Source of the DNA: Archaeoglobales archaeon
GTDB taxonomy: Archaea > Halobacteriota > Archaeoglobi > Archaeoglobales > Archaeoglobaceae
Length of the DNA stretch: 64,000 nt
Reading direction: 5' to 3'
Assembly (NCBI GenBank): GCA_030055525.1
Contig: JASFYJ010000006.1
Span: 1-64,000, forward strand
Below are positions 1-11,543 of this stretch, in pieces (within the stretch, counting starts at the first letter, position 1; the number at the start of each line of letters is the position of its first letter). Position numbers and translations under genes: made by a program. The notes beneath the pieces are model-generated. The model saw nothing but the letters and a program-made list of their open reading frames with translations. It made no database searches and was not told where the DNA came from.

Positions 1-101
1 GGACGAGCGAGGAGGTAAAAGTCTACACCGGCGCAGACGAGTGGGCTGATGATGCAGCTGTGGGTGTGAGGAAGATAAAGATGCTTGCCGGGGTGGGATG
101 A
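1..101 (+). CDS. mtoC: Corrinoid protein, C-terminal end only (MtoC-like)
   Basis: Only the last 32 or so codons are present. The reading frame is open from the window edge and stops with TGA at 99-101. The visible tail (VKVYTGADEWADDAAVGVRK) has the Gly-Ala-Asp...Tyr/Trp-Ala-Asp-Asp-Ala pattern typical of the last helix of the B12-binding Rossmann domain in methyltransferase corrinoid proteins (MtaC/MtbC/MtoC class). Its stop overlaps the next start as ATGA, so it is translationally coupled to the O-demethylase gene. By context it would carry the methyl group between demethylase MtoB and methyltransferase MtoA. The cobalt-binding DxHxxG motif and the helical cap lie outside the window, so the subfamily rests on operon context. 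Confidence 0.7.
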   Translation, partial: TSEEVKVYTGADEWADDAAVGVRKIKMLAGVG

Positions 102-1354
102 TGGAGGTTGAGGAGGTTAGGAGGGAAAAACTGCAGAGGATAGAGGATGTAATAAAAGGAAAGGAACCTGATAGAGTTCCAATAACTGGAGCTACAGCAG
201 TCTGGCATGGAACTTATGCAGGTTATACAACTCAGGATGTGCTCTTCGACTATGCCAAATGTAAAGACGCTTGGCTTAAGGTTGCAAGAGATTTCGATTT
301 TGATACATTCACAGTGATAGCCGGCCTTGAGGGAATGATCTACACTGTGGCTCTCCTTGAGCAGCCAGAAATGTCTGCAGCTGCGAGATTTATACTTGGA
401 AACACTCATCTTGTTCTCGGAGATGTATATTCAAAATGGCCTGGTTGCGAGTTGGATAAGAACGCCCATCCGCAGTTTATAGGAAAGGAAATAATGAAAA
501 TAAATGAATACAACCAGTTTATTGAAAATCCGCTTGAATTCATTAACAAGGTCGCTATGCCCAGAATCAACAAGAAGCTCAGTAGTGTTGGATCTGCAGA
601 ATACAACGCTGCACTTGCAAAGTATGGTGCAGAACTTGCAAAATTTGGGGCTTTTATGGCAGATACCTCGATGGAACTTGCAAAGATAGGTTACCCCACG
701 ATTCCGATGGCTTGGGGCTACGCACCTCTCGACCTGATAGGTGACTTCCTTAGAGATATAAAGAACATAGTTTTAGACCTTTACAGAGCTGGGGATAAAG
801 TGAAAGCAGCTGTGGAAGCTGTTAAACCTTTAATTATCAAAGCAGCAACTTATTCAGCTCCACCAGAAAATATTAGAAAGCAGGTATTTGGAACAGATGT
901 TGTAGAATGCTTCTTCCCGTTGCATCTTAACGAATACCTAAACCCTAAGCTTTACAATGAATTCTACTGGCCATCCCTTAAAGAAGTTTTTAAAGAGGTA
1001 ATAAAGCTCGGATTAACGCCTTTCGTTCTCTTTGAGGGTAAACACGATGCACACCTCGAAACTCTGCTTGAAGCACCGAAAGGAAAAATCGTTGGAGTTT
1101 TCGAAAAGACCGATGCAAGAAAGGTTAGAGATGTCCTAGATAACCATGTCGTACTCGTTAGCGGCCCACCAAATTCGCTGCTGATTAGCGGAACTCCACA
1201 GAAAGTTGAGGAATACATGAAGAAGTTGCTAGAGGATTGCAAAGAGGGCGGAATGATGATCTGGCCTGGCGTAGATGGTGGAATTTCGAGAGATGCAAAG
1301 CCGGAGAATGTTAGGGCTGTAATTGAGGCTGTAAAGAAGTACGGGAGATATTAA
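98..1354 (+). CDS. mtoB: URO-D-family corrinoid methyltransferase, probable methoxy-compound O-demethylase
   Basis: A 418-residue uroporphyrinogen decarboxylase-fold protein. The start is the first ATG of ATGATG; the second, at 101, is equally possible. The C-terminus shows the family pattern: a Gly-Pro-Pro loop where MtaA has GNVDP, then LLISGTPQKVEE and a GGMMIWPGVDGGI strand, ending in a helix like that of MtaA/MtbA. The His-X-Cys...Cys zinc motif of MtaA/MtbA is not visible: the segment around residues 313-319 reads EGKHDAH, and the usual PGC is PGV at 390-392. Setting it between a corrinoid protein, an MtrH-like protein and a reactivase matches the Mto system known from Methermicoccus shengliensis and Archaeoglobus fulgidus, in which MtoB moves the methyl of aromatic methoxy groups to the corrinoid protein. 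Substrate is inferred; a methylated amine or thiol is less likely. Confidence 0.78.
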   Translation: MMEVEEVRREKLQRIEDVIKGKEPDRVPITGATAVWHGTYAGYTTQDVLFDYAKCKDAWLKVARDFDFDTFTVIAGLEGMIYTVALLEQPEMSAAARFILGNTHLVLGDVYSKWPGCELDKNAHPQFIGKEIMKINEYNQFIENPLEFINKVAMPRINKKLSSVGSAEYNAALAKYGAELAKFGAFMADTSMELAKIGYPTIPMAWGYAPLDLIGDFLRDIKNIVLDLYRAGDKVKAAVEAVKPLIIKAATYSAPPENIRKQVFGTDVVECFFPLHLNEYLNPKLYNEFYWPSLKEVFKEVIKLGLTPFVLFEGKHDAHLETLLEAPKGKIVGVFEKTDARKVRDVLDNHVVLVSGPPNSLLISGTPQKVEEYMKKLLEDCKEGGMMIWPGVDGGISRDAKPENVRAVIEAVKKYGRY

Positions 1355-1374
1355 ATTTTTACCTTTGATTTTTT

Positions 1375-2607
1375 ATGAAATTAAAAATTGAAAAAGAGTT
1401 TCGAGGTTTCTATCCGGCATCAGTAGCTTTACTTTTGATATTCGGGATGGTAACCCTCATCTGGAGTCAGTTCTATCCCTATATTCTACAAAAGTATTCA
1501 CTGAAGGAGTTGTCACCTGTAGTCATCTCAGCATCTTTTATAGGCTTTGGGATGCTGATATTCCAATTGATTTCTGGATTTTTGGCAGATAAACGTGGTC
1601 CAAAGTTAACAATGACTTTTTCAAGCCTACTTTATTTCTTGGGAATGTTTATAATCTCAGTCATGTTTAACTTCGAAGAATGGGAAATTGCGAGATTGTA
1701 CTGGTATACAGGAAGCTTTTTCGTTGGTGCGGGTGCAGGATTGTTCGTAGGAACTTACCCCGTAGTTATAAGCAGATGGTACCCTGAAAATACTGGAAAA
1801 GCATTTGGAATTGCAATCTTTGGCCAGAACATCTCACCGCTGATAATGTCACCGCTTGTAGCCTTTTTAATCTCCAAATACGGAATTCAAGAAACTTACA
1901 TAGCAATAGGACTATTAGTGGCTGTATCTTTCTTCACCGTTGGCACTATACTCTGGAAAATACCCGAAGTGAAATCGAAGAACGAACAAAGTTTGAAAAG
2001 TGCTACGAAAGATGGAAGGTTCTGGATCCTCTTTACAGTCATGTTCTCAACAGCGACAGCTTGGTTTTTGATTTTGATGAATATAGCTACAATCGTCTCT
2101 GAAGGTTTGACGAGAGCATCCATAAGTTTGGAATACATTTCAGCTCAATTTATTCCACTATTTTTAGGGTTAACAGCAGTCGGTAGTGCTTTAGGTTCAT
2201 TGTTTTGGGGCAACTTCAACGATAGAAATGGAGGTCCGTTGAATACATTGCCAATTCTTTATGCAATGGCTGGAGTTGCGATTGCAATATTCGCAGCATT
2301 CTACTCAGATCTATGGCTAATATTAGTAGTAGGCATTTTTATGTACTTCTGTTTAGGTGGAGAGCCTACTGTGCATTTTACAGCAGTTCCAACGTTTTTT
2401 GGCCAGAAATTTACAGGTAGGATCACGGCAATGATGAACATTTCAGTTATGGTTTCTTCAATTTTAGGACCATACTTGGGAGCGGCTATAAGAGATCTAA
2501 CGTCATCTTACATCTCTGCTCTCTATTTAGCTTCGTTGCTTCACTTCTTCGCAGCTGCAGTTGTTTTTTTAGGTAGAAAATATGTTAAGGAGGTGAAAGA
2601 ATGCTAA
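1375..2607 (+). CDS. MFS transporter of the oxalate/formate antiporter (OxlT-like) type
   Basis: A 410-residue integral membrane protein with about 12 hydrophobic segments. The major facilitator motif between TM2 and TM3 is visible as ADKRGPKLT near residue 70, and the related second-half loop is seen as WGNFNDRNGGP. Family: MFS, OxlT-like. It begins 20 nt after mtoB with no obvious Shine-Dalgarno and runs 7 nt into mtoA, so it belongs to the operon. An OxlT-type transporter sits beside the methoxydotrophy genes of A. fulgidus too. The likely role is import of methoxylated aromatics or export of the demethylated product; direction and substrate cannot be read from the sequence. Confidence 0.8.
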   Translation: MKLKIEKEFRGFYPASVALLLIFGMVTLIWSQFYPYILQKYSLKELSPVVISASFIGFGMLIFQLISGFLADKRGPKLTMTFSSLLYFLGMFIISVMFNFEEWEIARLYWYTGSFFVGAGAGLFVGTYPVVISRWYPENTGKAFGIAIFGQNISPLIMSPLVAFLISKYGIQETYIAIGLLVAVSFFTVGTILWKIPEVKSKNEQSLKSATKDGRFWILFTVMFSTATAWFLILMNIATIVSEGLTRASISLEYISAQFIPLFLGLTAVGSALGSLFWGNFNDRNGGPLNTLPILYAMAGVAIAIFAAFYSDLWLILVVGIFMYFCLGGEPTVHFTAVPTFFGQKFTGRITAMMNISVMVSSILGPYLGAAIRDLTSSYISALYLASLLHFFAAAVVFLGRKYVKEVKEC

Positions 2608-3470
2608 GATTTGGTGATGTGAAAACTTTCGAAATTTGCGAGATAAAAGTTGGAGGAAATCCAGGAGAGAGCAAAACTTTGCTTATTGGCAGCATTTTTT
2701 ATAAGGGGCACAAGATAGTAGAAGACGAGAAGAAGGGAGTTTTCAACAAGGAGATGGCAGAGAAACTGATTAAAGAGCAGGAGGAACTCAGTGACAAAAC
2801 CGAAATCCCTGGCTTGGTTGATGTTGTAGGTATGAGTGAAGAAGCTCTCAAAAAATACATAGAATTCGTCGCATCAGTAACAGAAAAACCGTTCTTGATA
2901 GATTCGGCAATGCCCGATACAAAGATCTCCGCGTTGAAGTACGTAAAAGAAGTTGGGCTTGAGAAGAGAGTAATTTACAATTCAATCTCTCCAGAAGTTA
3001 AGGATAAAGAACTTAACGCTTTGAAGGAAAGCAACGTAGATTCCGCAATTGTTTTAACCTATACTATGAATGTCCTAAGCAGCAAGGCAAGAATTGACGC
3101 TCTCCAAAAAATTTTGCCAAAGCTTGAAGTTGCCGGGATAAAAAAGCCACTTGTAGATACCTTCGTAATGGATGTTCCAAGTTTACCTGCAGCCGTTAAA
3201 GCTGGAATCGAGATAAAGAAGAAGTTTGGATTTCCATGTGGTTCTGGTGCCCACAACGCTGTTGCAAGCTGGAAAGGGCTGAGAAATTTGCTTGGAAAAG
3301 AGGCCGAGAAGTATGCAGTACTGATTGCAAATACTCTACAGATAGCTTTTGGACTAGATTTCGCATTGTACGGGCCAATTGAAGATTGCAAAATCATATT
3401 TCCAGCTGTGTATACATTAAATACAGCCTACAAGAACTTCTTAAGAACAAAGGACTTTATACAGCTCTGA
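2601..3470 (+). CDS. mtoA: MtrH-like methylcorrinoid:tetrahydromethanopterin methyltransferase
   Basis: A 289-residue protein of the MtrH family, a TIM-barrel related to pterin-binding methyltransferases. It starts MLRFGDVKTFEICEIKVGGN and contains family segments such as FLIDSAMPDTKISALKYV and GFPCGSGAHNAVASWKGL. MtrH is the H4MPT-binding subunit of the membrane Mtr complex. Here it stands alone, without mtrA-G, inside a corrinoid demethylation operon, which fits MtoA: transfer of the methyl from the corrinoid protein to H4MPT. The start overlaps the transporter stop by 7 nt, and an AAGGAGGTG ribosome-binding site at 2588-2596 fixes the ATG at 2601. The next gene begins 5 nt downstream. Confidence 0.82.
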   Translation: MLRFGDVKTFEICEIKVGGNPGESKTLLIGSIFYKGHKIVEDEKKGVFNKEMAEKLIKEQEELSDKTEIPGLVDVVGMSEEALKKYIEFVASVTEKPFLIDSAMPDTKISALKYVKEVGLEKRVIYNSISPEVKDKELNALKESNVDSAIVLTYTMNVLSSKARIDALQKILPKLEVAGIKKPLVDTFVMDVPSLPAAVKAGIEIKKKFGFPCGSGAHNAVASWKGLRNLLGKEAEKYAVLIANTLQIAFGLDFALYGPIEDCKIIFPAVYTLNTAYKNFLRTKDFIQL

Positions 3471-3475
3471 GATCT

Positions 3476-5254
3476 ATGAGAGTTGTATTTGAGCCAATAG
3501 GTAGAAAGGTTGAGTGCGAATCAGGGACCATACTTGAAATAGCAAGAAACTCAAATGTTGGTATCAGATCAGATTGCGGTGGAAGAGGAGTCTGCGGAAA
3601 ATGTCGAGTTTTACTAATAAAAGGTTCTCTTAGTGAACCGAGTGATGCTGAGAGAAAAATCTTAAGCATTGAAGATCTTAACCAGAACTACCGACTAGCT
3701 TGTCAGGCAAAAATAACTGGAGACTCAACTATTTTTATACCCAAGGAGAGCAGACTCGAAGAGAGGAAAGTGGAAGAATCGACCATAGATCTCGAAGTTG
3801 AACTTGAACCGGCTTTGAGGAAGTTAACTATTCATCTTACACCACCAAGCTTAAGAGATGTTAGAAGTGACGTGGAAAGACTGAAAGAGAAGCTTGGAGA
3901 ATTTGAACTATCCTTGGATCTGCTAAAAAAACTTCCATTTTTGCTACGAGAAAAAAACTGGGTGATAAATGCCGTTCTATGGAAAAACAAGCTGATAGCA
4001 GTTGAAGAAGTCGATAATACCGAAATCTTAGGGTTGGCAGTGGATATAGGTTCATCCAAAATAGTATGTCATCTTGTAGATTTAAAAAGCGGAAAAACCA
4101 TCGCAAAAGCTTACGCCGAGAATCCACAGGTTGCTTACGGAGAAGACATAGTGTCGAGGATAAGCTATGCAAAAAACGAGCATAACTTGGAGAGATTACA
4201 GAGAATTGTAGTGGAAACGATAAACAGGCTTATAGAAGAAAACTGCAAAAAAGCAAAAAAGAGTCATGAAAATATTTACGAGGCTGTTATTGTCGGGAAT
4301 TCAGTGATGCATCACTTATTTTTTGGAATAACACCAAAATTCATAGGTGTTGCGCCATTTACACCTACAGTAAGCGAAAGTATAAGTTACAAAGCAAAAG
4401 AAGTTGGTTTAAAGATAAATCCTGAAGGTTTTATAACTTCTTTACCCCTTATAGCTGGCTTTGTCGGTGCTGACGCATCTGCGAATCTTCTACTAACAAA
4501 AATCTACGAAAATGATGAGGTATCGATGGTTATAGATATCGGAACAAACACAGAGGTAATTCTTGGAAACAAAGATAAGCTTTTTGCTTGCTCAACACCA
4601 TCTGGACCAGCTTTTGAAGGAGCACATATAACTTTCGGTATGAAAGCAGTAAGTGGAGCTATAGAGGAGGTAAAAATCGTAAATGGAGAAGTTTTTTATA
4701 AAACGATCGATGAAGAAAAGCCGAAGGGAATTTGCGGAAGTGGAATGATCGATCTGGTTGCAGAACTTTTTAAGAATGGATATATAAACAGAAATGGGAA
4801 ATTTATCAAAGAGGATGATAGAATCGTAAAAGAAGGTAATCCTCCAATCCCAAAGTTTGTTGTCGCAAAAGCTGATGAGACTGACTTTTTTAAAGCGATA
4901 ACAGTCAGCGAAAAAGATATAAACGAATTTTTACTAGCGAAAGCAGCAATAAAAGCTGGATGGACTATTTTATCAGCAAAGTTTGGAATAAAACCGGAAG
5001 AAATTCGCAAGATCTATCTTGCAGGATCTTTCGGCAAACATATTGATATAGAGAATGCAAGAACGATTGGTCTTATTCCCGCAAATGGTGAGATAATATT
5101 TGCTGGAGATTCAGCTGTAAGCGGTGCAAAGCTTGCGCTTAAATCTATACAGCAGAGGAATGAGATAGAAAAAGTAGTCAGAAAAGTTGAATACGTTGAG
5201 CTATCGGTTGAAAAAGAATTTCAGAGAGTTTATCTGCGTTCAATAATGCTTTGA
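3476..5254 (+). CDS. mtoD: Corrinoid protein reductive activase, 2Fe-2S plus ASKHA ATPase (MtoD-like)
   Basis: The start is placed at ATG 3476 (MRVVFEPIGRK, 592 residues). An in-frame upstream start at 3386 would overlap mtoA by 85 nt and adds no domain. Residues 1-80 form a plant-type ferredoxin domain with cluster ligands Cys34, Cys40, Cys43 and Cys76. Then come a linker with charged helices and, from about residue 185, the RACE/ASKHA ATPase fold, with phosphate-loop AVDIGSS near 188-194, VIDIGTNTEV and the C-terminal LAGSFGKHI. Enzymes of this family use ATP and low-potential electrons to reduce accidentally oxidised Co(II) corrinoid back to Co(I). The architecture is that of bacterial O-demethylase activases and MtoD, not methanogen RamA, whose 4Fe-4S clusters are C-terminal. 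It is the last recognisable gene of the mto operon. Confidence 0.85.
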   Translation: MRVVFEPIGRKVECESGTILEIARNSNVGIRSDCGGRGVCGKCRVLLIKGSLSEPSDAERKILSIEDLNQNYRLACQAKITGDSTIFIPKESRLEERKVEESTIDLEVELEPALRKLTIHLTPPSLRDVRSDVERLKEKLGEFELSLDLLKKLPFLLREKNWVINAVLWKNKLIAVEEVDNTEILGLAVDIGSSKIVCHLVDLKSGKTIAKAYAENPQVAYGEDIVSRISYAKNEHNLERLQRIVVETINRLIEENCKKAKKSHENIYEAVIVGNSVMHHLFFGITPKFIGVAPFTPTVSESISYKAKEVGLKINPEGFITSLPLIAGFVGADASANLLLTKIYENDEVSMVIDIGTNTEVILGNKDKLFACSTPSGPAFEGAHITFGMKAVSGAIEEVKIVNGEVFYKTIDEEKPKGICGSGMIDLVAELFKNGYINRNGKFIKEDDRIVKEGNPPIPKFVVAKADETDFFKAITVSEKDINEFLLAKAAIKAGWTILSAKFGIKPEEIRKIYLAGSFGKHIDIENARTIGLIPANGEIIFAGDSAVSGAKLALKSIQQRNEIEKVVRKVEYVELSVEKEFQRVYLRSIML

Positions 5255-7055: not shown

Positions 7056-7949
7056 TTAGAACAGATCTTTCAGGTTTATTATATGCTTTCCAAGTTTTCC
7101 TCCGTAGTTGCCAGCAGTTATCTTTACAACCCCCGGTATCTTTGTAGCAGCTAAAATTCCAACCCTCATTGCATTCTTTACCGCATCTATGTTCAACCCG
7201 TTTATGACTATCTCATACACAGCCTTGACCCCCGGCGGTATTTGAGATCCCTCAACTTTATCTCTCAAAGTTGGACAGTACTTTTCGTTCGTTGAAGCTT
7301 TCAAGAATTTGTATTTATTTGCTCCAACTTTGGATCCAGAGGCTACTATTCCCCCTGGAAATGGAGTGATGACTCCTTCAACATCCGCAATTGCATCTAC
7401 AGCAGCTTTTGCAGCGGCAAGTGCTGATGGTTGTGTTTCAGCCATTATGAAGAAGTTCCCTCCAGCAATTCCAGGCTGATAGCCGAAGTGGCTCTCAACG
7501 ATGAACTCTCCTTGCATCATTGGTATTGCGTAGCACTTTCTTCCACCTACTTCGACTTCTCTTTCATACCCATCTCCAAAGAATTTCAACTTGAAACCCG
7601 TATCGAACTTCTCAGCCGCATTTGGTAGACCGTTAAAAGCTGCTGTTGTTGGAGCTGTAAGAACGCATTGTCCAATCCTAGCCAAAAGCTGTTCCTCAAG
7701 ACCCTTCTTACTCATATGACAGATCTGTATATAATATCCTGGTCTCCCATCTGGTGTTTCGCTTGGTTTTGCTTTTATTTCAATCCCAGCCTCAGCTGGG
7801 CACATGATAACAGACGTTCCAAAACCTGTGGCTTCATTAGCCGCAACCCAAGCCCAGTAGTAGTCGTACGCAGTTATCAAAATCCTAGCAATCTTTATAT
7901 CAAAGGCCTCCGCAAATGTCTCTTCAACCTCTACTCCATTTACCTTCAT
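7056..7949 (-). CDS. ftr: Formylmethanofuran:tetrahydromethanopterin formyltransferase
   Basis: A 297-residue cytoplasmic enzyme that moves the formyl group between formylmethanofuran and H4MPT, the second step of CO2 reduction to methyl-H4MPT or, reversed, of methyl oxidation. The start ([20 protein letters not shown]), the central [20 protein letters not shown] and the end ([19 protein letters not shown]) match the A. fulgidus enzyme as I remember it, nearly residue for residue, so this is a strong taxonomic marker. Full length, no gaps. A TATA-like box lies at 7980-7989 on the minus strand, and thiD follows after 11 nt. Confidence 0.95.
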
Positions 7950-7989: not shown

Positions 7990-8085
7990 TTTTTATTTGG
8001 TCACACTATACAGTTGACAATAAAAAACATACATACAAAAAAACCATTGAGAAATTTTATTATCCTCCACCAGCTTGCGAAATTC

Positions 8086-9075
8086 ATGAGGATAGTTCTG
8101 AAATCCGAGGAAGTTAGAAGAAGATTCGGAAGAATGTTTTCAAATAGTATATTAACGATTGTTGATGAAAAAAATGCTGTTCTTGAGTTGATAGAGGAAT
8201 GCACAGCCAAAGGACCAGTAGAATGGGACCTCTTAAACAGACTTAGAGCCGGAGGGGCTGCTTATGCTGGTTGGATTGAGGGAAAAACTCTCTTCCTAAG
8301 AGCGAAAATTGGAAAATTCGATGTAAATTTTGGTCCTGCAGACTTTCAACGGGGAGGACAGGCTCTGGAAAGTGTGGAGGTTACAGAAAAAGAAGTTACA
8401 ACTACTTGGATTGGAATTGCAGGCGCCGGTTTGGGTTTAGCAGCCTGCTTGTCTCAAGCTCCAGGTGTTCTCGAAGCAGAATATCCTTCAAAAGATGATC
8501 TCGAAAAAGTAGGAGGAAGTTTTCAAAATAGAGTAAAAATAAAAACACCTAAATACAAGAAACTTGTCTTAGGAATTGACAACACGGATGTTAAGATGAA
8601 AGGTGCTACTTGGGCTTCAGCTTTAAAAGTAGCTTTGGATACAAGTGAAAAGATGGGATTAAAACTTATAAGCCATAGAATATTTCAGTGTTATCCAGAG
8701 ATCGAATGGAAAACCACAAATAACGTCTCATCCTCGGTAGTCTTTGCATTGCCCTGGAATGTTAGCAGTGAAGAAGTTTTAAAAGCTTTTGTGGAGAGGA
8801 TTAGACCGTTATGCTATTCCAATGAAGCATGCTTGGTGGCTTACGAAGGCATCGAAGTCCCAAAAGAGTTGAAGGACTTTGGTCTGAGGGTTAAAAAAGA
8901 GATAGTTGGTTTGGAAGAGGCTTTGGAACTCGCTGAGAAATTTAAATTAGATGTTATACCTATTACTGGCAAAAAGGGAGCTATAGGTGCGCTTGCAGCT
9001 TTAGCGTTGTACGATGAGGGTATAAAGTATGCGGCATTCGATGATGACCCTGCCTTAAGGAGAGTGAAAACTTGA
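8086..9075 (+). CDS. Methanogenesis marker protein 11 (MMP11)-like protein
   Basis: A 329-residue protein. The start is put at ATG 8086 because a TATA-like AAATTTTATTA lies about 30 nt upstream, which suggests a leaderless transcript; a TTG at 8014 would add 24 residues. A GIDNTD motif sits at 163-168, followed by GATWASALKVALD. GID(D/N)TD is shared by MMP11 and by TiaS-like nucleotide-binding proteins. Other marks are FGPADFQRGGQALE, a Gly-rich GIAGAGLGLAACL stretch and a C-terminal GKKGAIGALAAL. MMP11 is one of the proteins whose distribution follows methyl-coenzyme M reductase; its biochemical function is unknown. It is coupled to the MMP8 gene by TTGA overlap, supporting a joint role with MMP8 and AtwA. 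Confidence 0.75.
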   Translation: MRIVLKSEEVRRRFGRMFSNSILTIVDEKNAVLELIEECTAKGPVEWDLLNRLRAGGAAYAGWIEGKTLFLRAKIGKFDVNFGPADFQRGGQALESVEVTEKEVTTTWIGIAGAGLGLAACLSQAPGVLEAEYPSKDDLEKVGGSFQNRVKIKTPKYKKLVLGIDNTDVKMKGATWASALKVALDTSEKMGLKLISHRIFQCYPEIEWKTTNNVSSSVVFALPWNVSSEEVLKAFVERIRPLCYSNEACLVAYEGIEVPKELKDFGLRVKKEIVGLEEALELAEKFKLDVIPITGKKGAIGALAALALYDEGIKYAAFDDDPALRRVKT

Positions 9076-9896
9076 GTGAACACATAATGGAGATGCTTGG
9101 AAGAGCGAGAGTTGTTGTTGAAGATGGTAAGGTTATCGATGCTTCAGAACCGATAATTAGCTACTGTCCCCTTTTTGAAAAACTTCATAATATAAAAAGA
9201 ATAACAAAAATAGAAGTTATAAAAAATGCTGAATACAGGATCAAAAATTTCGGATTGTTTACAAAGAACAGAATAGTTGAAGACGAAAGAATTTACGCAA
9301 CTTTTGGAGCTTCTGAAATACTTTCATGCTGTTTAAGGAAAAAAATTCTCGATGCTGTCGTGATTGCTTCAGATTGTGCAGGTACAGTTGTAACTTCAAA
9401 TCCAAAAATTGTTCAAGGTCTAGGAGGGAGACTTTCCGGTTTAATTAAGACTTCTCCAATAGAAGAAGTCATTGAAAGGATCGAGAGGGCTGGTGGATTT
9501 GTGATAGATAAGAAGTTTGCTTCTATAGATCAAGTTAAAGGTGTAGAAGTTGCAAGAAAGATGGGTTTTGAAAGGATAGGAGTAACACTACTAAATCCTG
9601 AAGATGCCAAAAGGTGTGATGCCACGCTTAAATTTGCTGTACACACTACAGGTGTAAACTGGAGTGCGGAAGATCTAAAAGAGTTCGATCTGGTAACGCT
9701 GTGTGCATCAAAAAGACTCCGAGAATTAAGCAAAGATCTGGCAAAAGCTCAGGCTGGAGAATCGATCCCAGTAGTTGCTATATCAAAAATTGGGAAAGAA
9801 GCTTTGTTAGAGAGAGCCAAAGAAATTGACAAAATTCTTATTTCGAGCACCAATTTACCTAAGTTGGGAAAAAATCAGCCAGAACCACTTGTCTAG
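9072..9896 (+). CDS. Methanogenesis marker protein 8 (MMP8, DUF2099)
   Basis: A 274-residue protein starting at TTG 9072 (SEHIMEMLGRARVVV), with AGGAGAG at 9058-9064 as ribosome-binding site. The in-frame ATG 9087 would remove the conserved start. Diagnostic segments: PIISYCPLFEKLHNIKRIT and FGASEILSCCLRKKILDAVV, followed by ASDCAGTVVTSNPKIVQGLG and a C-terminal GESIPVVAISKIGKEALLE. Several cysteines (30s, about 85-86, 101) could bind metal. MMP8 occurs with Mcr in methanogens and ANME archaea; the role is unknown but may concern Mcr assembly or modification. The gene follows MMP11 with 4-nt overlap and precedes AtwA by 9 nt. Confidence 0.8.
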   Translation: MSEHIMEMLGRARVVVEDGKVIDASEPIISYCPLFEKLHNIKRITKIEVIKNAEYRIKNFGLFTKNRIVEDERIYATFGASEILSCCLRKKILDAVVIASDCAGTVVTSNPKIVQGLGGRLSGLIKTSPIEEVIERIERAGGFVIDKKFASIDQVKGVEVARKMGFERIGVTLLNPEDAKRCDATLKFAVHTTGVNWSAEDLKEFDLVTLCASKRLRELSKDLAKAQAGESIPVVAISKIGKEALLERAKEIDKILISSTNLPKLGKNQPEPLV

Positions 9897-9905
9897 GTGA
9901 GAGGT

Positions 9906-11543
9906 ATGATAATAAGGGTGAATAACCTAGTAAAGTACTATCAACTGAGCAGTGGAAATAAAATAAAGGCATTAGATATAGAAAAACTTGAGATCGAGAA
10001 AGGAGAAGTTGTAGGCCTACTAGGAAAAAGTGGTAGCGGAAAAACTACACTACTCAGAATCCTGAGAGGTGTTGAAAGATTCGACGAGGGTACAATTTAT
10101 GTAGATGGAATAAAACTAACTCCCGAATCTGAACCCCCAGCTTTCAGAGAAGTTAAGATGCGTACAGCGATACATCTGCAAAGAAGCTTTGGATTGTGGT
10201 CTGAAAAAGTTGTAGAGAACGTAATAAGAGCTTTAAGCTTCGTAAGATATGGCGATGAAATTCTACCAGCTCAGGCTGAGGATTACGAGGAGATGAAGGA
10301 AGTAGCTATGGATCTGCTGAGGCTTGTAGGCTTGGAACACAAGGCTGAATGTTGGGCTGAGATTTTAAGTGGTGGCGAGAAACAAAGACTTATCCTTGCA
10401 AGACAGTTAGCAAAGAACCCATCGATCCTAATCCTAGACGAATTTGGAACTATGACATGCAACGAAACAAGAAAAAAATCCATAGAGCTTATAAAAAAGA
10501 TAAACAAAGAACTAGGAACAACGATCGTTTTCTCCTCACACATGCCTGAGGTTCATAAAGATCTAGCAGATAGAGTTGTACTACTGGAAAGGGGTCGTGT
10601 AATATCTGAAGGAGATGCTAATGAGATGGTAGCCAGATTTTTATCAGAACTTGAGCCACCTTTGCAGAGAAATCCGAAAATAGAGGATGAGATAGTCAGA
10701 CTTGAAAATGTTTATAAAAAATACTACGTTGTTCCGGGAGGAAAAACTCTAGAGATGAAAGATGTAAACATCTCGATTCGTAGAGGTGAAATCATTGGAG
10801 TAATTGGAAAGAGCGGTAGTGGAAAGACTGTGCTTACTCGTTTAATAGCTGGTTTAGAATTGCCAGATAGTGGAAAAGTCGTTCTAAAAATAGACAACGA
10901 GGTAGTAGACTTTAAAGAGTTTGGCAGGAAAAGCATAAATGTTAGAAAGAAGATAGGTATACTACATCAAGAGTTCTCCCTTCCGTTTTGGGCTAAAGTC
11001 AGCGAATTAATAGCTTACAGGATTAGAACGAAGAAAAATGAGAACGTCGAAAATGCTATAAAAATGGCAAAAGAGATGGGAATAGATGAAAAGATTTTTG
11101 ATGCAATCTACAGATTAACGGACTTACCAAAAGATGAGGCTGAGATGAGGCTTCAAAGGCTGGGATTATCGTATCAGATAATTAAAACCCTTTTTCCAGA
11201 GGGAGAGGAGGATCTAAATTCTATAATACCAATGCTCGAGCGTCTGAATTTATCTACCGATATCTTGGAGAGGTTAAGCCATGAACTATCTGGTGGAGAA
11301 GCCGTAAGACTTGGAATTGCTCTTGCTGCTATAACAAAGCCAGAACTGTTGATACTAGATGAACCGTTTGGAGATATAGATCCAGTTACGCTAAGAAAGG
11401 TTGTGAACGTTCTTAAAGAGATAAACATCAAAAACGGGACTACAATGATAATTGTAAGTCACCAAATAGATGTTTTAAAAGAACTTGCAGACAGATTCCT
11501 GCTTGTTGAAGATGGCAGAGTAAGCTTCTTAAGTAGCTTTTAA
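9906..11543 (+). CDS. atwA: AtwA, component A2 of the methyl-coenzyme M reductase activation system
   Basis: A 545-residue soluble protein with two ABC-type ATPase domains in tandem and no membrane segment. Walker A motifs are GKSGSGKTT near residue 40 and GKSGSGKTV near 301; signatures are LSGGEKQRL and LSGGEAVRL; Walker B are ILILDEFGT and LLILDEPFGD. The inserted helical stretch before the second signature and the overall length match component A2. A2 works with an Fe-S complex to reduce Ni in coenzyme F430 of Mcr to the active Ni(I) state at ATP cost. The start at ATG 9906 has GTGAGAGG in front. It is the third gene of the MMP11-MMP8-AtwA unit. Alternative reading: a generic double-NBD ATPase, less likely given the neighbours. 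Confidence 0.84.
   Translation: MIIRVNNLVKYYQLSSGNKIKALDIEKLEIEKGEVVGLLGKSGSGKTTLLRILRGVERFDEGTIYVDGIKLTPESEPPAFREVKMRTAIHLQRSFGLWSEKVVENVIRALSFVRYGDEILPAQAEDYEEMKEVAMDLLRLVGLEHKAECWAEILSGGEKQRLILARQLAKNPSILILDEFGTMTCNETRKKSIELIKKINKELGTTIVFSSHMPEVHKDLADRVVLLERGRVISEGDANEMVARFLSELEPPLQRNPKIEDEIVRLENVYKKYYVVPGGKTLEMKDVNISIRRGEIIGVIGKSGSGKTVLTRLIAGLELPDSGKVVLKIDNEVVDFKEFGRKSINVRKKIGILHQEFSLPFWAKVSELIAYRIRTKKNENVENAIKMAKEMGIDEKIFDAIYRLTDLPKDEAEMRLQRLGLSYQIIKTLFPEGEEDLNSIIPMLERLNLSTDILERLSHELSGGEAVRLGIALAAITKPELLILDEPFGDIDPVTLRKVVNVLKEINIKNGTTMIIVSHQIDVLKELADRFLLVEDGRVSFLSSF

Follow-up and report, generated by a model that had tools for sequence, protein, structure and literature searches.

The window analyzed here is a stretch of 64,000 nucleotides that opens contig JASFYJ010000006.1 of an Archaeoglobales archaeon (Archaeoglobaceae; assembly GCA_030055525.1). 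Our subject is a cluster of three genes within it, which an earlier note, made from the letters alone, had named MMP11, MMP8 and AtwA, the last being component A2, the protein that reactivates the nickel cofactor F430 of methyl-coenzyme M reductase (Mcr). The cluster and its divergent neighbor are composed as follows.

8086..9075, plus strand: MMP11-like gene, a divergent second copy; TiaS TCKD-domain protein of 329 aa (TIGR03280, 194.7 bits)
9072..9896, plus strand: MMP8 (DUF2099), single copy, TTG start (TIGR03275, 314.6 bits; PF09872, 304.6 bits)
9897..11543, plus strand: gene of a twin-ABC ATPase paralogous to AtwA, hereafter ABCw, starting with GTG at 9897 or ATG at 9906 (TIGR03269, 302.7 bits)
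7056..7949, minus strand: ftr, formylmethanofuran--tetrahydromethanopterin formyltransferase, divergent neighbor (TIGR03119, 479.7 bits)

As the earlier note had described, the three genes are coupled and lie beside ftr, which belongs to the C1 branch of the Wood-Ljungdahl pathway and methanogenesis. All three plus-strand frames are intact and tightly coupled: the MMP11-like open reading frame begins with ATG (an in-frame TTG lies at 8014), that of MMP8 overlaps it by 4 bases, and that of ABCw abuts MMP8. The best NCBIfam families of the three products are MMP11, MMP8 and component A2, with E-values that exclude chance (1.8e-57 for TIGR03280, 4.1e-94 for TIGR03275 and 4.6e-90 for TIGR03269). 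Only MMP8, matched over its full length, passed the curated cut-off of its family (232.7 bits); the MMP11-like protein fell below that of TIGR03280 (255.8 bits) and the ABC protein below that of TIGR03269 (517.1 bits). The hidden Markov model search that the earlier note had proposed thus upheld one of its three names, and the other two genes are paralogs of the proteins named. An ftr-like gene adjoins MMP8 also in a distant Halobacteriota genome (G064, L071:7345-9870).

Judged from its sequence, the ABC gene is an AtwA paralog and not component A2. In a tree of 58 proteins, ABCw and AtwA were split with 100/100 support. The window protein is 67-70% identical to its MMP8-adjacent counterparts in related genomes and only about 32% identical to the canonical AtwA of those relatives. 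The N-terminal Zn-binding CxxC...CxxC loop, which is a feature of A2 (PMC12176620), was present in 0 of the 62 aligned ABCw proteins, the window protein included, versus 11 of the 15 AtwA proteins by a strict pattern (the exceptions being one fragment, one row cut short and sequences with variant spacing). In the second nucleotide-binding domain (NBD2), 112-114 residues separate the Q-loop from the signature in ABCw, versus 62 in AtwA, which amounts to an insertion of about 50 residues, and the second Walker B motif reads LDEPFGD in ABCw versus LDEP[ST]G in AtwA. The D-loop of NBD1 also differs between the two, and the Walker A motif of NBD1 is intact in ABCw. Residues P396 and F399 of A2 contact the N-terminal latch of McrA, with Phe399 touching the unfolded McrA helix (PMC12176620). 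At the corresponding positions of ABCw, which are approximate because the alignment there adjoins the insertion, the Pro is kept and F/L is mostly replaced by Glu.

One could envision that ABCw and AtwA are exchangeable versions of component A2, with ABCw produced under different conditions. The roughly 30% identity to AtwA and the restriction of ABCw to Mcr-bearing genomes, described below, are in keeping with this scenario, as is the structure model of ABCw, which is weak (predicted template-modeling score, pTM, 0.51) and whose best solved match is still A2 (8s7v_K). We consider it improbable, however, because the clade is deep and separate, because the Zn loop, the hydrophobic latch residue, the D-loop and the length of NBD2 all differ, and because both genes are retained in those genomes of the window's genus in which both regions were read.

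That ABCw is an Mcr-directed ATPase distinct from A2 appears to us quite likely, and the distribution of its gene is central to this reading. ABCw (E<=1e-60) was found in 27 of 398 Thermoproteota genomes and mcrA likewise in 27, and the two lists are identical. Among 57 Archaeoglobales genomes, the ABC profile matched in the same eight genomes as MMP8, and seven of the eight carry mcrA, which was found in these seven alone; the eighth (G050), which gave no mcrA match, is 73% complete. Five of the mcrA-bearing genomes belong to the window's genus, and the other two (G055 and G056), each with two copies of mcrA, are of the Polytropus type. ABCw was also found in 93 of 247 Halobacteriota genomes (E<=1e-85). 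We attach no probability to the co-occurrence of ABCw and mcrA, since the relatedness of the genomes inflates any simple figure.

The genomic context of ABCw in Thermoproteota points in the same direction. In 22 of the 27 genomes, ABCw is flanked by MMP7 and a RACo-like protein, all on one strand; in 4 the flanking genes are mcrD and mcrA, and in 1 it follows MMP7 at the end of a contig. The longer stretches contain an operon, MMP3-MMP6-MMP17-MMP7-ABCw-RACo, that adjoins mcrD, and in one genome (G379) MMP8 lies two genes beyond this operon. A second layout of about 16 kb comprises mcrBGA, ABCw, mcrD, MMP17-6-3, MMP5-15, MMP7 and canonical AtwA. The neighbors of ABCw in the Polytropus-like genome G055 include an mcrD-like gene and an AtwA gene. 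The exact tracking of Mcr by ABCw in Thermoproteota and the ABCw operons are new here; neither these nor the corrected identities were found described in the limited literature searched, and a paper search found nothing linking Mcr with RamA and Mmp7. The RACo-like [2Fe-2S]/ASKHA protein encoded after ABCw (L214:9378-11306 and 21 other Thermoproteota loci) is a candidate for an electron-supplying factor in Mcr activation.

Alternatively, ABCw might serve as the ATPase of an importer, or of some other process whose co-occurrence with methanogenesis is incidental. It is matched by many models of transporter ATPases, and in some Halobacteriota it lies away from mcr. This explanation is very improbable in light of the neighborhoods, given that no permease or binding protein was recognized beside ABCw in the loci read and that MMP7-RACo, MMP7 or mcrD-mcrA neighbors accompany it in all 27 Thermoproteota genomes.

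The earlier note had predicted from the cluster that the DNA derives from an Mcr-bearing Archaeoglobi lineage, and had proposed a search for mcrBDCGA in the rest of the genome. The genome (G000; 1.56 Mb in 16 contigs, 98.5% complete) proved to contain all of these genes. A single, intact mcrA (an open frame of 555 aa) is grouped with mcrB, D, C and G on contig C11, surrounded by MMP2, CfbB, CfbC, CfbD and CfbE; several of these MMP2 and Cfb calls scored under their own cut-offs, yet they are the best or expected family matches. The same contig carries a canonical AtwA (C11:59698-61425, 575 aa) that keeps the Zn loop and whose score of 575 bits, obtained from a 434-residue piece, exceeds the A2 cut-off. 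Full-length frames of MMP3, MMP6/5, MMP15, MMP17 and MMP7 and of mtrE, D, C, B, A and H lie within C9:5715-15606, the families having been named by way of the homologous cluster of a related genome (G051). As an Archaeoglobaceae genome that has both mcrABG and mtr, G000 falls into the published Ca. Methanomixophus/Methanoglobus genus, which includes Ca. Methanomixophus WYZ-LMO2. Mcr-bearing Archaeoglobi have been described before (PMC7380581, PMC10945360, PMC6474303), and the prediction was therefore correct but concerned something already known. The argument behind it, that a reactivator of F430 would be kept only where Mcr is present or a relic system remains, started from a gene that is not AtwA; its conclusion nevertheless holds. 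Nor did we find, for MMP8 and the ABC gene, the pattern that the note had named as contrary to its view, namely a complete genome devoid of mcr together with the occurrence of these genes in strains that lack Mcr. That the three genes are relics left after the loss of Mcr, as the persistence of authentic MMP11 in Mcr-free Archaeoglobi might suggest, has next to no chance of being right, because G000 has an intact mcr operon and mcrA, all three frames are intact, and the genomes lacking mcrA also lack MMP8 and ABCw, except for the one that is 73% complete.

Two further features of the C11 region were observed. A three-gene NitT/TauT-like ABC importer lies between AtwA and cfbE (G000:C11:62044-64588; L018:2045-4588), and importers that are about 70% identical occur in the mcr/cfb clusters of G051, G052 and G053; its substrate might be a sulfonate, for instance coenzyme M, or else nickel. 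Hydrogenase and Hdr/Qmo-like genes are located immediately upstream of the AtwA region (G000:C11:50524-58312; L033) and resemble the Mvh-Qmo-Hdr cluster of Ca. Methanoglobus (PMC10945360).

In each of the six genomes of the window's genus that have MMP8, this gene is coupled to ABCw. The earlier note had stated that the three genes normally follow mcr, and this was not borne out: neither in 20 Halobacteriota loci nor in 33 named loci outside the genus is MMP8 directly followed by ABCw or an A2-type ABC gene, and the adjacency was observed within the genus only. In one Polytropus-like locus, AtwA lies one gene beyond the next neighbor of MMP8. The Polytropus-like loci L118:909-4441 and L117:7998-10301 show the order MMP8, a protein of 318-322 aa (its L117 copy without a Pfam match) and an ABC protein of the AtwA type; a 4Fe-4S ferredoxin-like gene lies upstream. 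In a quick tree, MMP8 of the genus grouped with Halobacteriota (SH-aLRT 94); in the tree of 58 proteins, ABCw of the genus grouped with Thermoproteota (95/93). A tree in which all euryarchaeal ABCw proteins were held together was not rejected by the approximately unbiased test (p-AU 0.175), so that a transfer of ABCw from Thermoproteota, as suggested by the grouping, is no more than possible. If the two genes do have separate ancestries, the fact that they came together would argue for a common function, which we offer as a suggestion. The structure model of MMP8 has a pLDDT of 90, and its top 17 solved matches are F420-flavin proteins of the FrhB/FdhB/HCAR/Fsr type (best E 1.7e-3, TM 0.35). 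On the basis of this weak likeness, MMP8 may be redox-active, a possibility that we treat as a lead only.

Not all members of the window's genus carry Mcr. Genome G049 is 99% complete (1.2 Mb) and has no mcrA, MMP8 or ABCw; because of its completeness, we conclude that Mcr was lost or never gained in part of the genus. Three less complete genomes of the genus (G047, G048 and G054) likewise show none of the three genes.

The MMP11-like gene behaves differently from its two partners. The authentic MMP11 of G000 resides elsewhere (C8:205647-206516, 342 bits), and MMP11 exceeds its cut-off in 19 of the 57 Archaeoglobales genomes, many of them without mcrA. Among these 57 genomes, the nearest relatives of the MMP11-like window protein (40-43% identity) occur in G019 and G020, which are Mcr-free g5 genomes. 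The earlier note had taken the whole trio as a sign of Mcr; this is correct for MMP8 and the ABC gene, which carry the Mcr signal in Archaeoglobales, but not for MMP11, because authentic MMP11 is common also in Mcr-free Archaeoglobi. MMP11 by itself should therefore not be read as evidence that an Archaeoglobi genome supports methane metabolism. More generally, annotations as "AtwA" and "MMP11" mix paralogs.

The best explanation of the data is that the cluster forms part of the apparatus that supports Mcr in a methane-metabolizing Archaeoglobi cell. ABCw would be an additional soluble twin-ABC ATPase, acting on Mcr together with A2 and not in its place, and would use ATP to drive a conformational step at either the F430 pocket or the McrA latch. 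MMP8 would be its partner, possibly a redox partner, and the MMP11-like gene could either be carried along locally or be a paralog that serves a different purpose. A2 associates with the core of Mcr and contributes to keeping the unfolded McrA helix open beside F430, McrD recognizes the same McrA region before F430 enters, and an A2-MMP7-MMP17-MMP3-McrC complex activates Mcr with ATP (PMC12176620). Because ABCw is found repeatedly beside mcrD and MMP7, it would suit either F430 loading (the McrD stage) or reductive activation (the MMP7 stage); the choice of one of these steps by itself is tentative and somewhat doubtful. A bolder proposal, which we regard as rather unlikely, is that Mcr biogenesis strictly requires ABCw as a second ATPase, that in Thermoproteota it joins MMP3, MMP6, MMP17, MMP7 and the RACo-like protein in a unit, which as a whole delivers the missing low-potential electrons to Ni(II)-F430, and that in Archaeoglobi it was recruited to MMP8. 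If this were true, activation to Ni(I)-F430 and to Co(I)-corrinoid would share a type of reductase.

Several observations weigh against an Mcr-directed role of ABCw. The copy in the window does not adjoin mcr, and in two Halobacteriota loci read to 19 kb (L218 and L220) ABCw lies away from mcr. Several MMP8-bearing Halobacteriota families gave no ABCw match at E<=1e-85, a threshold that divergent copies might escape. We are not aware of biochemical work on ABCw or on MMP8, and the proteins named in the purified M. maripaludis activation complex include neither of them (PMC12176620). That complex is slow, and additional factors are thought to be missing from it (PMC12176620). The reduction of F430 to Ni(I) in Mcr is thus a partly solved problem, for which ABCw, which tracks Mcr in two lineages and shares operons with MMP7, mcrD and a RACo-like reductase, provides concrete candidates for the missing activation factors.

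A RACo-type gene also lies in the window itself, on the other side of ftr from the cluster, together with an MtrH-family gene.

2601..3470, plus strand: MtrH-family methyltransferase (PF02007, 344.7 bits; NF002142, 372 bits)
3386/3476..5254, plus strand: RACo-type [2Fe-2S]/ASKHA corrinoid reductive activator (PF14574, PF17651, PF17650, PF00111)

Positions 98-5254 hold consecutive genes for a UROD-family protein, an MFS transporter, the MtrH-family protein and the RACo-type activator, a row that looks like a corrinoid methyltransferase operon. In view of the Thermoproteota order of ABCw followed by RACo, we considered whether this activator is part of an Mcr module, and rejected the idea because its close orthologs (60-65% identity) occur in Mcr-free g2 genomes and because it sits in the UROD-MFS-MtrH-RACo row.

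Among known systems, component A2/AtwA (M. maripaludis A2, PDB 8s7v and 9h1l) is, like ABCw, a soluble twin-ABC ATPase; the motifs LQRxFxLxSE and QE[YF]xL are common to both, and both are tied to Mcr-bearing archaea. An AtwA-related, methanogen-specific second ABC protein also appears in two earlier reports, as a "paralog of AtwA" in 28 of 28 methanogens in ProPhylo (PMC3226654) and as AtwA1/AtwA2 in Methanothermobacter, which has two or three AtwA genes (PMC3087415). In our data a Methanobrevibacter genome has one copy each of the AtwA type and the ABCw type, and ABCw presumably corresponds to the ProPhylo paralog. Ca. Methanomixophus and Ca. Methanoglobus (PMC7380581, PMC10945360) are likewise Mcr-bearing Archaeoglobaceae, with Mtr in Methanomixophus. 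G000 differs from its relatives in the genus in that its MMP8-ABCw pair adjoins ftr together with the divergent MMP11, and in that its MMP-mtr cluster and mcr are on separate contigs, whereas in the relatives one stretch holds them. Within the MMP8 family (TIGR03275, DUF2099), finally, coupling to ABCw is seen in this genus only.

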